In this document: positions 25,835-52,872 of the stretch, piece after piece
Layout of the letters: each line of letters begins with the position of its first letter
How positions within the stretch are numbered: the stretch's first letter is position 1
NCBI RefSeq assembly: GCF_016865485.1
Contig: NZ_AP024452.1
Location: 5,850,501 to 5,914,500, forward strand
Origin: Luteitalea sp. TBR-22
Lineage (GTDB): Bacteria; Acidobacteriota; Vicinamibacteria; Vicinamibacterales; Vicinamibacteraceae
DNA: 64,000 nt
Direction of reading: 5' to 3'
Made by a program: the position numbers and the translations under genes
The notes under the pieces: generated by a model
Databases searched by the model: none
Seen by the model: the letters and a program-made list of their open reading frames with translations, nothing else
What the model was told of the DNA's origin: nothing

Positions 25835-26452
25835 CTAGCGCGGGCGGCCCGGTTGCATCGAGACGGCGACGCGGTTGCACGTGGCGCGAGCACCGGCGGC
25901 GTCGCTGAAGGTCACGCGACCTTGCGCCAGCGCATTCACGAACGCGCCAGTCAGCCTGATCTCGCCGTCAACGCTCGCGGCTCCACCCTCCCCGGCCGCG
26001 CCCGCACTGATGGCCAGCCCACTTGCGGCACGCGCGGCACCGTCGTCGGGCGCGCTGCCACGCAGCGAGCCCTCGACGGCGAAGAGCTCCGAGCTGAAGG
26101 AACGCGTCGCGACGCGCAAGCGCAGGACGAGGTCGGTGCCGGGACGGTCGCTCCTGAACACCCAATCCTCGCCGTCGCGCGACACGGTGCCTGCGATGGT
26201 GATCCGCTTGCCCGCCGGCGGCTGGCCCGGGGGACTGCAGCCGGGCAACTGCGGGTCGCCGCCGACCGCGTCCTCGCCCGACACTTCCAGGGTGTAAGCG
26301 CCTGGCTGCAGGCCGGTCTGGAGACCCGACGGCAGGGTGGGCAGGATCGCCGGCGACGAGCCGCCCGAGCAGGCTCCGCACGCCACGAGCGCGACCGCGC
26401 CGAGCAGGCCGACACGCCTCGCGGCCCGGCGCGCGCGCCGATGTGGGTTCAC
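25835..26452 (-). CDS. lipoprotein of unknown function
   Basis: 205 aa if it starts at GTG 26450-26452. That start gives an Arg-rich n-region (NPHRRARRAARR), a hydrophobic core (VGLLGAVALVAC) and a lipobox LVAC. No in-frame ATG gives a better signal. The mature protein has a beta-rich profile (GAYTLEVSGEDAVGGDP, ITIAGTVSRDGEDWVFRSD, LVLRLRVATRSFSSELFAVEGSLRG), suggesting a small surface or periplasmic beta-sandwich. Family not recognised. It is read convergently with the gene ending at 25827 and away from the tRNA. Confidence 0.6.
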   Translation of the reverse strand: MNPHRRARRAARRVGLLGAVALVACGACSGGSSPAILPTLPSGLQTGLQPGAYTLEVSGEDAVGGDPQLPGCSPPGQPPAGKRITIAGTVSRDGEDWVFRSDRPGTDLVLRLRVATRSFSSELFAVEGSLRGSAPDDGAARAASGLAISAGAAGEGGAASVDGEIRLTGAFVNALAQGRVTFSDAAGARATCNRVAVSMQPGRPR

Positions 26453-26612
26453 CTTGGCACCATGCTCCACATGATGACTGACGCGTGCTGATGAGGTCGG
26501 GTCCCTTGGCGTGGCTCGGGTGTCGCGTGAGGGCCGCAGGGAGGAACTGGCGTTTTCTGGCACAATCGCGGAGCCGCCGTCCGGTTCGCTCCGGGCACGT
26601 GGCGCACCGAGG

Positions 26613-26685
26613 GGGCCCATAGCTCAGCGGTCAGAGCCGCCGGCTCATAACCGGCCCGTCCCAGGTTCGAATCCTGGTGGGCCCA
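26613..26685 (+). tRNA. tRNA with CAU anticodon (probably tRNA-Ile2, alternatively elongator tRNA-Met)
   Basis: 73 nt. The acceptor arms GGGCCCA (26613-26619) and TGGGCCC (26678-26684) pair perfectly, with discriminator A at 26685. The D-arm starts GCTCAG. The anticodon loop is CTCATAA, so the anticodon is CAU. The T-arm is CCAGG TTCGAAT CCTGG. No CCA is encoded. The C4:G69 and C5:G68 pairs favour a TilS-modified isoleucine tRNA reading AUA over elongator Met, but this is an inference. It is not an initiator, since the acceptor's first pair is G:C. A tandem array starts directly after it. Confidence 0.92.
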
Positions 26686-26707
26686 CTTCTCCTCGCTTCG
26701 CTCGTCG

Positions 26708-27175
26708 AGTGGGCCCACCGGGCTTCAGGCCCTCCGGCTCCGGTCCTGCGGACCTCGCCTGCGGGCTCGAATCCTGGCCTTCACGCCCCTTCCCTCGTCG
26801 AGTGGGCCCACCGGGCTTCAGGCCCTCCGGCTCCGGTCCTGCGGACCTCGCCTGCGGGCTCGAATCCTGGCCTTCACGCCCCTTCCCTCGTCGAGGGGGC
26901 CCACCGGGCTTCAGGCCCTCCGGCTCCGGTCCTGTGGACCTCGCCTGCGGGCTCGAATCCTGGCCTTCACGCCCCTTCCCTCGTCGAGTGGGCCCACCGG
27001 GCTTCAGGCCCTCCGGCTCCGGTCCTGCGGACCTCGCCTGCGGGCTCGAATCCTGGCCTTCACGCCCCTTCCCTCGTCGAGTGGGCCCACCGGGCTTCAG
27101 GCCCTCCGGCTCCGGTCCTGCGGACCTCGCCTGCGGGCTCGAATCCTCGCACGTACGCCACGCTTCCCTCGTCGA
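26708..27175. repeat. 93-bp tandem array downstream of the tRNA
   Basis: Five units with boundaries at 26708, 26801, 26894, 26987 and 27080 (exactly 93 bp apart), then a diverged end at about 27175. Each unit has GTGGGCCCACC (a palindrome echoing the tRNA acceptor end), the hairpins GGGCTTCAGGCCC and GGTCCTGCGGACC, and CTCGAATCCTGG, which matches the tRNA's T-loop and 3' T-stem. Copies differ by only a few bases. The 770-bp stretch 26686-27455 holds no credible gene. Its second half (27176-27455) is lower in GC and I see nothing identifiable there. Confidence 0.9.
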
Positions 27176-27455
27176 GGGCGCTGCCGTCTGGCAGGTGGGA
27201 CGGCCACGATTGGCAGACAGAAGATCGGAACCAAGCTGACTTCTGGCGTGGCGAGGGCCTCGAGGCGACCTCTCGATTCGCGCTAAGTGCGGCAGATGAA
27301 GGTGTTGTCGACATGCGCCGAACTGAGCCGTTCTCGGAACGCTGATTGCAGCCATCGTTGGATTCGTTGCAGATTCCTTACCGCTACGAAGGGGACGAGT
27401 GGCAGATGTCCGGTCATTCGATCACGCAGCGTCACGAAAACGACAAGGGAGCGAG

Positions 27456-28148
27456 ATGAAATTTCAGGTTCTGGGACTGGTAGTCGTGGGGCTGCTGGCC
27501 GGGCAGTTCGCGGATTCAGCGTCAGCCGCCACGATCGTCGGCAATTGTGGTCCGGCCTCAGACACGGCGACGGGTATCGCCGAGCCCTTCGCCGAGTGTC
27601 AGCCGTTCGATTCCAGCCTCGGCACGCTGACCGGAATCACATTCTCGATGTCTGCGAGGTACTCCGGCTCTTTTGTCTTCTTGAACCTGGGCGGCGTACC
27701 GGGAACTCGGACCGCCGGGACGGGGGTCATCAACATACAGCTGTTCGACGACTACCGTCTGTACCTCGATGACTTCGATGAGATCGACATTCCTGAGACG
27801 ACGCTGCAACCCGGCGAACGTTTGACCGTGCCGTACGACGCGACTGCGATGGCAAGCGGCTCCATCGCGCCGGTCGAGTTCAGCGAGTTCGTCGACTTTC
27901 CATTCGGCATCGGGGCCATGATTGGGGTGATGAGTCTGCCGTCGGACATCGGCGAGTGCAGTTTCATAGGTCAGCCCGAACTCTGCATCTTCACTCCAGA
28001 TCCGGAGATCAGTGTGACGCTGTCCGGGGCCTTCACGTACACCTATGATCCTGTCGTCGTCCCCCCTGTCCCCGAACCCGGGATCCTTGCGCTGCTCGGG
28101 CTGGGCGTGACAGGCCTCCTGCGGCGCCGGAACCGCAGCGCGGCCTGA
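27456..28148 (+). CDS. PEP-CTERM exported protein (possible choice-of-anchor E type)
   Basis: 230 aa. ATG 27456 has AAGGGAG just upstream. Signal peptide residues 1-25 (ends ASAATI). The body includes FDSSLGTLTGITFSMSARYSG, resembling choice-of-anchor E proteins, and Asp-rich segments (FDDYRLYLDDFDEIDIPETTL). The C-terminus is VPEPGILALLGLGVTGLLRR, a textbook PEP-CTERM sorting signal needing an exosortase. Codon use and GC are visibly lower than in neighbours, so recent transfer is possible. An intrinsic terminator follows directly. This is the second PEP-CTERM gene in the window. Confidence 0.85.
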   Translation: MKFQVLGLVVVGLLAGQFADSASAATIVGNCGPASDTATGIAEPFAECQPFDSSLGTLTGITFSMSARYSGSFVFLNLGGVPGTRTAGTGVINIQLFDDYRLYLDDFDEIDIPETTLQPGERLTVPYDATAMASGSIAPVEFSEFVDFPFGIGAMIGVMSLPSDIGECSFIGQPELCIFTPDPEISVTLSGAFTYTYDPVVVPPVPEPGILALLGLGVTGLLRRRNRSAA

Positions 28149-36623: not shown

Positions 36624-37603
36624 ACCTGGATCAGTTGCGCACCCTTTCGGCGCGTGTCGGCGCCGACCCACTGCTGGTGCAGGCGGCCGGCGGCAACACC
36701 TCGCAGAAGGACGGCGACGTGCTGTGGATCAAGGCGTCGGGCACGTGGCTGCGCGACGCCGCCAGCCGCGACGTGTTCGTGCCGGTCGACCTCCCGGCCC
36801 TGCGAGACGCGCTGCGGCAGCGCGATCCGGCGGCCGACGCGTGCCAGCCGTTCGTGCGCGCCGACCTGAACACGTCCGGCCTGCGGCCCTCCATCGAGAC
36901 CAGCGTGCACGCCCTCATGCCGCAGCGCGTCGTCGTCCACGTGCACTGCGTGAACACGATTGCCTGGGCGATCCGCGCCGACGCGGAAGCCGCGCTCGCG
37001 ACGCGCCTCGACGGGTTCGACTGGGCCTTCGTGCCGTATGCGCGCCCGGGCCTGCCGCTTGCCGACGCGATCGCGCCGCGCCTGCGTCCGGGCGTCGACG
37101 TGCTGGTGCTCGGCAACCATGGACTGGTCGTGGCCGCCGACTCGGTGGGCGCCGCCGAGGCGCTGCTCGAACGGGTGGTCGGCACGCTGGAGCGTCCCGC
37201 GCGAGAGCTCACGCTGCCCGACGTCGACGCGCTCGAAGCGATGTGCGAAGGCACGCGCTACCGCCTGGCGGTCAGCGACGACACCCATGCGCTCGCGACC
37301 GACGAGCACGCGCTGGCGATGGGCGGCGCGCACGTCCTCTATCCCGACCATGTGGTGTTCCTGGGAGTGGGTGTCGCCACCGACCTGGCGAGCGACGCCA
37401 CCCTCGTCGCCGTGCCCGGCGGCGGCGTCCTGGTGCGCGACGATGCGAAGCCCGCCGCGGAAGCGATGGGCCGGTGCCTTGCCGACGTCCTGCGCCGCGT
37501 CGAGCCCGGCACTGCGCTCAACCAGCTCGACGCCGCCCAGATCGATCAGCTGATCAACTGGGACGCCGAGAAGTACCGGCAGGGGTTGACGTCTGACGTC
37601 TGA
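36617..37603 (+). CDS. class II aldolase/adducin-family protein
   Basis: 328 aa; the ATG overlaps the HAD stop (ATGGTGA). Fold of the L-fuculose-1-phosphate aldolase/ribulose-5-phosphate 4-epimerase superfamily. The phosphate loop is QAAGGNTSQKDGD, with WIKASGTWL after it. Candidate zinc ligands are in ETSVHALMP, VVVHVHCVN and GNHGLVV. The C-terminal third (about residues 230-328) lies beyond the usual small aldolase and may be a second lobe. The last codons and stop fall in a heptamer array. The reaction is unknown; context points to a sugar phosphate made by the upstream kinase. Confidence 0.8.
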   Translation: MVNLDQLRTLSARVGADPLLVQAAGGNTSQKDGDVLWIKASGTWLRDAASRDVFVPVDLPALRDALRQRDPAADACQPFVRADLNTSGLRPSIETSVHALMPQRVVVHVHCVNTIAWAIRADAEAALATRLDGFDWAFVPYARPGLPLADAIAPRLRPGVDVLVLGNHGLVVAADSVGAAEALLERVVGTLERPARELTLPDVDALEAMCEGTRYRLAVSDDTHALATDEHALAMGGAHVLYPDHVVFLGVGVATDLASDATLVAVPGGGVLVRDDAKPAAEAMGRCLADVLRRVEPGTALNQLDAAQIDQLINWDAEKYRQGLTSDV

Positions 37604-37636
37604 CGTCTGACGTCAAACGTCAGACGTCAAACGTTA
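37588..37636. repeat. heptamer array covering two convergent stop codons
   Basis: Seven consecutive 7-bp units: GACGTCT three times, then GACGTCA, AACGTCA, GACGTCA, AACGTTA. It includes the last codons and TGA (37601-37603) of the aldolase and the TAA (37634-37636, minus strand) of the ThuA gene. GACGTC is itself a palindrome. Confidence 0.85.
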
Positions 37637-43112: not shown

Positions 43113-43162
43113 CCTGATCTGTGGCGACTGTAAGCCGCTTCGGGCCCGGGCGGCAAGGCGGC

Positions 43163-43239
43163 GGGAGTCGGGAGTGGGGAGTGGGGAGTTGGGAGTCGGG
43201 AGTGGGGAGGCGGGAGTCGGGAGTGGGGAGGCGGGAGGG
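43163..43239. repeat. heptamer array, 11 units
   Basis: Eleven 7-bp units of the form GGGAGTC/GGGAGTG/GGGAGGC, with no breaks in phase over 77 bp. It ends 4 nt before the stop codon (43244-43246) of the AAC(3) gene. Confidence 0.88.
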
Positions 43240-51532: not shown

Positions 51533-52762
51533 ATGCAGATCTTCGGTGAGCACGACGAGGCCACGCTGCGCCAGTTGCGGGACGTGGCCTCGCGCGCCGA
51601 CCGCGTCGCCCTGATGGCCGACGGGCACGTCGGTTACGTCATGCCGATCGGTGGGGTGGCCGCCTACCGGAACAAGGTGTCGGTGGTCGGCGTCGGGTTC
51701 GACATCGCCTGTGGCAACGCCGCCATCCTGACCGACGCGTACCTCGACGACCTCGGCGCGACGGCCGCCGAGCGGCACGCGGCGCTGGCCACCCTGGCCG
51801 ACGACATCGCGTCGACGGTGAGCTTCGGCCTCGGCCGGCGCAATCGCGCCGACGACGCCCCGACCGACGACGCGCTGTTCGAGGACGCGGCGTGGGAGGC
51901 GGTGCCCCGCGGCCAGCGGCAGGCACTGCGCGACAAGGCCCGCTCGCAGCTCGGCACGGTGGGCAGCGGCAACCACTACGTCGACGTCTTCGCCGACGAG
52001 GCCGACCGGCTCTGGGTCGGCGTGCACTTCGGCAGCCGGGGCTTCGGTCACACGATCGCGTCGGCGTTCCTGGCGCTGTCGCAGGGCGCCAGGTGGGGCG
52101 CGCGCGTCCCCGAGCGTGAGGTGCTGCTCGACGTCGACAGGTCCATCGGGGCCGACTACTGGGCGTTGATGACGCTCGCGGGGCGGTACGCGTACGCGGG
52201 GCGCGAATGGGTCGCCCGAAAGGTCGTCGGGCTGCTCGGCGCGCGGGAGCAGGACCTGGTGCACAACCACCACAACTTCGCCTGGCGGGAGCGGCACTGG
52301 GGCGACGACCTGATCGTGGTGCGCAAGGGCGCCACGCCGGCCTACCCGGGTCAGCGGGGCTTCGTCGGCGGGTCGATGGGAGACGACGCGGTGATCGTGG
52401 AAGGCGTGGACACCGCGCGCCACGTGGCGCCGGAGGTGCACGACCTGCAGCGCCGCGCGCTGTTCTCGACGGTGCACGGAGCCGGGCGGGTGATGTCGCG
52501 GACGCAAGCGGCCGGCAAGGTCGACAGGCGCACGGGACGTGTCCGCCTGCCCGGTGCCATCTCACCGCAGATGATGCGCGAATGGGTCGAGCGCAAGGGC
52601 GTCGTGCTGCGTGGCGGGGGCACCGACGAGAGCCCGCACGTGTACCGCCGCCTGCCCGATGTCCTCGCCCACCAGCGCGGCACCGTCCGCGTCCTCCATA
52701 CCCTCCGCCCCCTCATCGTCGTGATGGCCGGCGCCCACGAGGTGGATCCATACAAGGACTGA
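51533..52762 (+). CDS. rtcB: RtcB RNA ligase
   Basis: 409 aa. GTP- and Mn-dependent ligase joining 2',3'-cyclic phosphate (or 3'-phosphate) to 5'-OH RNA ends. Visible motifs include MADGHVGYVMPIGGVAAY, VGFDIACGNAA with the metal Cys, SGNHYVDVF, VHFGSRGFGH, NHHNFAWRE, RKGATPAYPG, GSMGDDAV and the guanylylated-His region STVHGAGRVMSR. Length and order fit the family (canonical ~400-480 aa). It might serve RNA repair. No archease or RtcA is adjacent. A heptamer array begins at the first base after its stop codon. Confidence 0.95.
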   Translation: MQIFGEHDEATLRQLRDVASRADRVALMADGHVGYVMPIGGVAAYRNKVSVVGVGFDIACGNAAILTDAYLDDLGATAAERHAALATLADDIASTVSFGLGRRNRADDAPTDDALFEDAAWEAVPRGQRQALRDKARSQLGTVGSGNHYVDVFADEADRLWVGVHFGSRGFGHTIASAFLALSQGARWGARVPEREVLLDVDRSIGADYWALMTLAGRYAYAGREWVARKVVGLLGAREQDLVHNHHNFAWRERHWGDDLIVVRKGATPAYPGQRGFVGGSMGDDAVIVEGVDTARHVAPEVHDLQRRALFSTVHGAGRVMSRTQAAGKVDRRTGRVRLPGAISPQMMREWVERKGVVLRGGGTDESPHVYRRLPDVLAHQRGTVRVLHTLRPLIVVMAGAHEVDPYKD

Positions 52763-52872
52763 CCGGGCACCGGGCACCGGGCACCGGGCACCGGGGCACC
52801 GGCTACCGGGCACCGGGCACGGAGCGCCGGATGCCGGGCACCGGGTTCCGGGTACCGGGTACCGGGTACCGG
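52763..52872. repeat. long heptamer array directly after rtcB
   Basis: About 15 units of CCGGGCA and variants (CCGGGTA, CCGGATG) with one 8-bp slip, beginning at the base after the rtcB TGA (52760-52762). The array covers most of the rtcB-rnhA spacer. No gene is present. Confidence 0.9.

Follow-up and report, generated by a model that had tools for sequence, protein, structure and literature searches.

A tandem array behind the CAU tRNA gene

The genome of Luteitalea sp. TBR-22 (here G000) is complete and consists of a single contig of 6,468,984 bases. Within the window, by which we mean the whole stretch of 64,000 nucleotides that was analysed, a tRNA gene with the anticodon CAU is located on the forward strand at 26613–26686. 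It was called as Met by ARAGORN and is probably Ile2-like. At the CCA position (26686–26688) the gene carries CTT, and most tRNA genes of the genome encode CCA; the same position reads CCA, CTA, TCA and CCA in the relatives G001 to G004, respectively.

Behind this gene, TRF reported a tandem array at 26696–27176 with a period of 93, 5.2 copies, 97% matches and a score of 893. When the surrounding 4 kb were randomised 200 times with a first-order Markov model, 20 arrays were found in total, the best of which scored 85 and none of which had a period of at least 60. The five near-identical 93-bp units that the preliminary description had placed after the tRNA were thus confirmed. On the forward strand, units 1 to 5 occupy 26708–26800, 26801–26893, 26894–26986, 26987–27079 and 27080–27172. 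There is no difference among units 1, 2 and 4; unit 3 departs from them at 2 of 93 positions, and unit 5 shows 15 differences in 93 positions in an ungapped comparison, all of them towards its diverged 3' end.

Each part of the array can be assigned on the forward strand. The tail of the tRNA from the T-loop onwards (D0, CGAATCCTGGTGGGCCCAC, 26668–26686) is the source of the copies and is followed by a spacer (h, CTCCTCGCTTCGCTCGTCG, 26689–26707). Unit 1 then presents an inverted copy of the tail (D', 26709–26721), which reads GTGGGCCCACCGG compared with GTGGGCCCACCAG for a perfect one and recurs in units 2 to 5 from 26802, 26895, 26988 and 27081. The core of unit 1 (GCTTCAGGCCC...GGGCTCGA, 26722–26770) recurs every 93 bp, and a direct copy of T-loop and T-stem (D1, CGAATCCTGG) follows at 26768–26777, with further copies at 26861, 26954 and 27047 and an altered one at 27140. 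The initial claim that CGAATCCTGG and the palindrome GTGGGCCCAC occur in every unit holds for the tRNA and four of the five units in both cases; unit 5 carries CGAATCCTCG in place of the former, and unit 3 carries GGGGGCCCAC in place of the latter. When single units were folded, z values of −0.15 and −1.52 were obtained for the forward strand, −3.14 if the unit was started in the tRNA tail, and −0.33 for the reverse strand, so the predicted folding of a single unit is unremarkable or register-dependent. The window contains three more tandem arrays, with a 7-bp period, at 37587–37634, 43162–43237 and 52762–52872.

The same element behind other tRNA genes

A search of the genome with the array DNA returned two further places, behind tRNA-Pro(TGG) and tRNA-Arg(CCG). 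We then read the 3' flanks of all 44 tRNA genes of G000 and of another 44 in G001, a congeneric relative with 7.48 Mb; the latter are the G001 genes that scored above the family cut-off, four sub-threshold rows being left aside. From these flanks a common order emerged: the tail D0, the spacer h, the inverted tail D', a conserved core (GCTTCAGGCCCnCGGCTCCGCCTnCGGCTCGCCnTCGGGCTCGA) and the direct tail D1. D' often begins with TGG and D1 begins in the T-loop. The spacer resembles CTCGCTTCGCTCGTC or is a perfect hairpin of varying sequence; the type found in the window is common to other tRNA loci, and several other loci carry the hairpin instead. The duplication of a tRNA 3' end proposed in the preliminary description is therefore real and extends beyond one locus, many tRNA genes being followed by their own tail in both inverted and direct orientation.

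A covariance model (R1) gave 20 matches in G000 with E values of 2.3e-7 or better. R1 was built from 24 modules which a script and inspection by eye had first located in these same loci, and its searches therefore favour the known core. Eighteen of the 20 matches adjoin the 3' ends of 11 tRNA genes, about a quarter of the 44, and the remaining two stand alone, 7 kb past tRNA-Lys(CTT) and 15 kb past tRNA-Leu(TAA), carrying the tails of those tRNAs. A strict core pattern matched twice in G000, each time behind a tRNA. Tandem units were found five times at the window locus and twice each at Arg-CCG, Leu-GAG and Ser-CGA. At Gln-TTG (L078), the plan is the same but the core differs, and the locus was missed by R1.

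A second palindromic kind, consisting of variants of CCTTCG...GGCTGGCAAGCC, was noticed by eye immediately behind the CCA of other tRNAs (L071, L103, L058, L091, L118 and L124; Val, Tyr, Gly, Thr, Ser), and a match to the own tail was not evident by eye in these palindromes. The Rfam models Plastid-ycf2 (RF04354) and Plastid-psbl-rps4 (RF04351) gave matches below cut-off antisense to tRNA genes, e.g., on the minus strand of 26613–26686, which points to tRNA sequence within these models.

Both arms follow the host tRNA

Initially, tails of mostly 16 bases were compared in 400 nt of flank, and the own tail was ranked among all tails. It was the best direct match for 8 and the best inverted match for 6 of the 44 tRNAs of G000, and for 4 of 44 in each of the two orientations in G001. 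For a set of 38 modules that adjoin a tRNA, drawn from several genomes, D' reached a score of 21.6 with the own tail compared with 13.3 with others, and the corresponding values for D1 were 20.6 and 13.0. None of 5000 permutations matched the observed sum for D', and none of 5000 did so for D1. For 68 control tRNAs of G000 and G001 outside this set, among which Gln-TTG was included, 2154 of 5000 permutations reached the sum. The own tail was better than every other tail for 18 of 38 D' arms and 20 of 38 D1 arms. Both arms match the host tRNA rather than other tRNAs.

The two arms are preserved to different degrees. D1 has decayed at several loci, including the window, where its acceptor part is lost, and D' mirrors the tail in all five window units, unit 3 having a single change. 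In both species, the D' of tRNA-Asn matches, and D1 does not extend past the T-loop. Since D' persists where D1 has lost its acceptor part or is confined to the T-loop, D' appears to be maintained against D0 and not against D1. Transitions in D' were found at 4 of 214 sites where they give G-U and at 13 of 373 where they give A-C, a comparison with little power.

Distribution in the Acidobacteriota

Strict filters were applied in the searches of 100 relatives and of a phylum sample of 396 genomes, both including G000. An R1 match with an E value of 0.01 or better was found in 31 of the former, several of the weakest of which (L185, L186, L189, L190) look like chance, and a match at 1e-4 was found in 12 of the latter, one of which, G041, was counted for the single locus L180, which we read as chance. 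A total of 46 loci was examined, namely those outside G000 minus three second units (L211–L213) plus the two lone matches of G000. By script, 29 of them have a tRNA directly upstream, one has a tmRNA, three have a tail without a gene body and 13 have neither. From these 13, L142, L188, L208 and L215 were read as displaced modules and L170 as a damaged tRNA-Asp; six look like chance by eye (L180, L185, L186, L189, L190, L217), and L173 and L179 gave no clear reading by eye. The module lies behind tRNA-Glu in two genomes that belong to one other family, with a perfect 21-base D' in one of them (L203). The module behind a tmRNA was observed in a distant member of the phylum (L204, 1149–1499 and following). 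When named contigs were scanned with the strict core pattern, only LNDN01000105.1 of Acidobacteria bacterium Ga0077522 matched.

G001 carries a related array with units unlike those of the window, and G002 to G004, as we parse them, carry one or two units. The five units of the window and the different ones of G001 point to local amplification, as recombination between tail copies would give. Cores of one tRNA in different genomes had an identity of 0.727 (40 pairs), compared with 0.637 for different tRNAs of one genome (102 pairs) and 0.575 if neither was shared (804 pairs). The nearest neighbour of a core came from the same tRNA in 16, from the same genome in 9 and from neither in 19 of 44 cases. 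Together, these patterns indicate that some modules have long resided at their tRNA, and that others were homogenised within a genome or spread there. Among the titles and abstract openings listed from the open-licence literature, none concerned tRNA-cognate repeats in Acidobacteria.

Comparison with known repeats

The closest parallel is RtT, which was described in 1991 and is known from Enterobacteria and Pasteurellaceae. A part of RtT in the stringent response has been suggested and little tested (PMC4986893, PMC2965389). The RtT model (RF00391) gave 7 matches in 3 of 9 E. coli stretches used as a positive control (tyrT/V, serX, proK). In the tyrT/tyrV region of E. coli K-12, the order is tail, spacer, inverted stretch, hairpin core and direct tail, with the inverted stretch reading GGGGAAGGAT in tyrV and a near form of it in tyrT. 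The direct tail is the own one in 4 of 4 loci tested. The own tail also had the best inverted score at three of the four loci, narrowly at tyrT (17.0 vs. 15.5), and further at tyrV (20.0 vs. 14.5) and serX (17.0 vs. 13.0, at a different place than in the reading by eye), but not at proK (13.0 vs. 14.5). The cognate rule is hence firm in E. coli RtT for D1 only.

Like RtT, the module lies behind tRNA genes with a copy of the tRNA 3' end, places a direct own tail and a short inverted piece around a hairpin core, and forms tandem units at more than one tRNA. However, the module unit measures about 93 bp compared with 178 bp in RtT, and its D' is much longer, beginning about 20 nt from the tRNA. 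A hairpin with a T-run, seen by eye between tRNA and repeat at serX and proK, is missing between tRNA and D' of the module. The host belongs to the Acidobacteriota, and no match to RF00391 above the cut-off of 45 bits was found in 7 genomes; the sole match below it came from G006 (20.2 bits, E value 0.585). No match was found in 26300–27500 at E values up to 1, and none in 10 module loci at E values up to 5. A covarying pair in RtT is mentioned in PMC7657543.

Other known systems are more distant. In the accessible text of PMC2965389, RtT-like elements are placed among the BIMEs, and the module shares with REP/BIME the clustering of short palindromic elements. In contrast to the general intergenic dispersal of REP/BIME, it is confined to tRNA and tmRNA 3' ends and fitted to each tRNA, and all 20 strong matches in G000 lie at tRNA tails or displaced tails. 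The E. coli trailer RNA 3'ETS-leuZ, which functions as a sponge, also lies directly behind a tRNA, but no tail copies were seen in it. The attL/attR sites of islands also contain the tRNA tail in direct orientation, beginning at the T-loop, but lack the inverted copy and the conserved core between the tails. The accessible part of PMC2884548 contains no mention of such repeats. The window array is best described as an amplified copy of an element that mirrors the tRNA tail; it is of the RtT kind by plan and, judged by the Rfam model, is not a member of RF00391.

Covariation of the core

In the alignment of 24 modules, 17 pairs were supported, 12 of which showed changes on both sides. Standard pairs made up 91.7% of the cells compared with a mean of 78.1% after shuffling, and 50 cells showed double changes compared with 12.6 in the shuffles. 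If the partner was slid by one column, the paired cells fell to about half and the covariation score dropped from 0.367 to 0.04–0.07. One of the 17 pairs, columns 45 and 97, includes a T-loop base which varies among tRNAs, and its partner in the left arm varies with it. The bases TCAGG and CTCGA of the core are nearly invariant inside and outside the stems.

The larger alignment comprised 69 of 72 rows, with three doubtful ones dropped and several rows being units of one array. It contained 84 G-U cells, 55 of which came from one nearly constant pair (24 of 24 rows in the smaller alignment, 54 of 69 in the larger). Without this pair, 29 G-U cells stood against 33 A-C cells. Selection at the RNA level should favour G-U, and since G-U was not in excess, a role at the RNA level is not supported by this measure. 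The preliminary description had foreseen neutral satellite DNA if relatives lacked the array, or if the copies drifted freely with no compensatory changes in the hairpins and no transcription; the relatives carry the element, and its stems covary.

Proposed action of the palindromic repeat at the DNA level

We give about an even chance to the explanation that the array is a DNA-level hitchhiker, i.e., an amplified palindromic repeat of RtT build which copies the tRNA tail and resides at the tRNA and tmRNA 3' ends of Acidobacteriota. This explanation is supported by the concentration of the matches at tRNA genes, the cognate arms, the covariation, the related units in G001 to G004, the lack of a G-U excess and the recombinase-bearing stretches inserted between two tRNA genes and their modules. 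Unequal crossing-over or slippage between the two direct tails, D0 and D1, would allow the unit to expand and to contract, and would also keep the units of a species alike. Copying from the immovable tRNA tail, by gene conversion or by template switching at the palindrome, would both create the inverted arm and maintain its complementarity to that tail. Because pairing would act at the DNA level, the element would mainly be a hitchhiker and not a needed RNA, adding spare attachment sites behind the tRNA.

Several observations count against this explanation. The nearly invariant TCAGG and CTCGA suggest recognition by something, and the near-constant G-U pair would be explained by an RNA or by a shifted pairing. 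RNAs of the RtT family were detected on northern blots in Actinobacillus, according to the accessible text of PMC4986893. Furthermore, cores often group by tRNA type across genomes, and slow co-evolution could replace the re-copying. The decay of D1 at several loci also counts against it, as does the fact that the own tail ranked first for only 18 (D') and 20 (D1) of the 38 modules.

Alternative explanations

A functional trailer RNA is possible, if rather doubtful. Here, the module would be transcribed with the tRNA and excised; it would then work either as a small RNA or in cis, as a switch whose D' competes for the tail. The strong covariation and the northern-blot RNAs fit this explanation, and RttR and 3'ETS-leuZ are annotated as tRNA-trailer RNAs in E. 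coli. In equilibrium predictions, which ignore co-transcriptional folding, h and D' (+42 nt) abolished the acceptor stem of 26 of 37 module tRNAs compared with 14 of 66 controls. However, the full module (+110 nt) restored the stem in only 3 of those 26, so that a clean switch is not predicted, and a switch that relies on D1 to free the tRNA tail was rejected; with +110 nt of flank, the stem was lost in 33 of 37 tRNAs with a module and in 31 of 66 controls. The lack of a G-U excess over A-C also speaks against a trailer RNA, and no promoter- or terminator-like site was found in 26300–27500. T-run terminators followed none of 20 tRNAs with a module compared with 8 of 68 without, numbers too small to tell, and a function of the module as an intrinsic terminator was rejected.

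It is unlikely that the array is attachment-site debris, in which the repeated integration and loss of tail-carrying mobile elements would have left behind tails and a shared end sequence. Integrases often cross over in the T-loop, where the tail copies start, and recombinase genes adjoin the same tails. In G000, the stretch from tRNA-Lys(CTT) to its displaced module contains a large serine recombinase, and that from tRNA-Leu(TAA) contains a tyrosine integrase, a VapE/primase protein and a terminase-like ATPase; we read both as putative islands which entered at the tRNA tail and displaced the module downstream. Some D1 copies precede a sequence that resembles an island end, by eye only. However, the tails of a module are only about 60–70 bp apart, too short for a recombinase gene, and recombinase genes were found only in the stretches beside modules. 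The same 60–70 bp recur with compensatory changes at many different tRNAs, and attachment sites do not need an inverted tail. The integration scar considered in the preliminary description is hence retained insofar as recombinase-bearing stretches begin at the same tails, but what lies between the tails is a conserved element.

Two observations on these stretches may be added. The 15-kb stretch behind tRNA-Leu(TAA) (L221) resembles a phage satellite. Serine-recombinase genes with the same Pfam domains lie beside tRNA-Lys(CTT) tails in two families of the order (L220, L222), and the frame in L222 is without a resolvase domain.

A neutral satellite, arisen by slippage at the CAU tRNA alone, is very improbable: the window units are homogeneous and unlike those of G001, but the core is common to 11 tRNA loci and to other families, the arms are cognate and the stems covary. 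Pure slippage was rejected for the element on account of the common core and the covariation, and only the copy number in the window may be neutral. A repetitive protein gene is hardly credible and was rejected, since the open frames of 222–242 aa on both strands follow from a period of 93, a multiple of 3, and unit spacings elsewhere are not all such multiples (94 in G002, 97 at G001 Pro, 104 at Ser-CGA and at G001 Asn). In the window, frames of 222 to 242 codons on both strands span 26511–27355 and may be annotated as proteins.

Implications

Beyond the DNA-level hitchhiker, a broader proposal can be made, which we consider improbable. A class of mobile repeats might copy the tail of its host tRNA or tmRNA into both arms on arrival, with RtT being a second, independently diverged branch. 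The copied tail would run from T-loop position 57/58 to the end, and one core would fit any tRNA. Reverse transcriptases stop at modified A58, where the copy boundary falls, and it is conceivable that the tRNA itself serves as the template of a copying step.

The RtT-like plan recurs in Acidobacteriota, behind many tRNAs and a tmRNA, without a detectable sequence match. Such elements escape the RtT model, and spurious proteins may be predicted in them by gene finders. A testable rule is gained from this comparison, namely that both arms follow the host tRNA, and it raises the questions of how the repeat is refitted for each tRNA and whether the tails serve as spare landing sites for islands.
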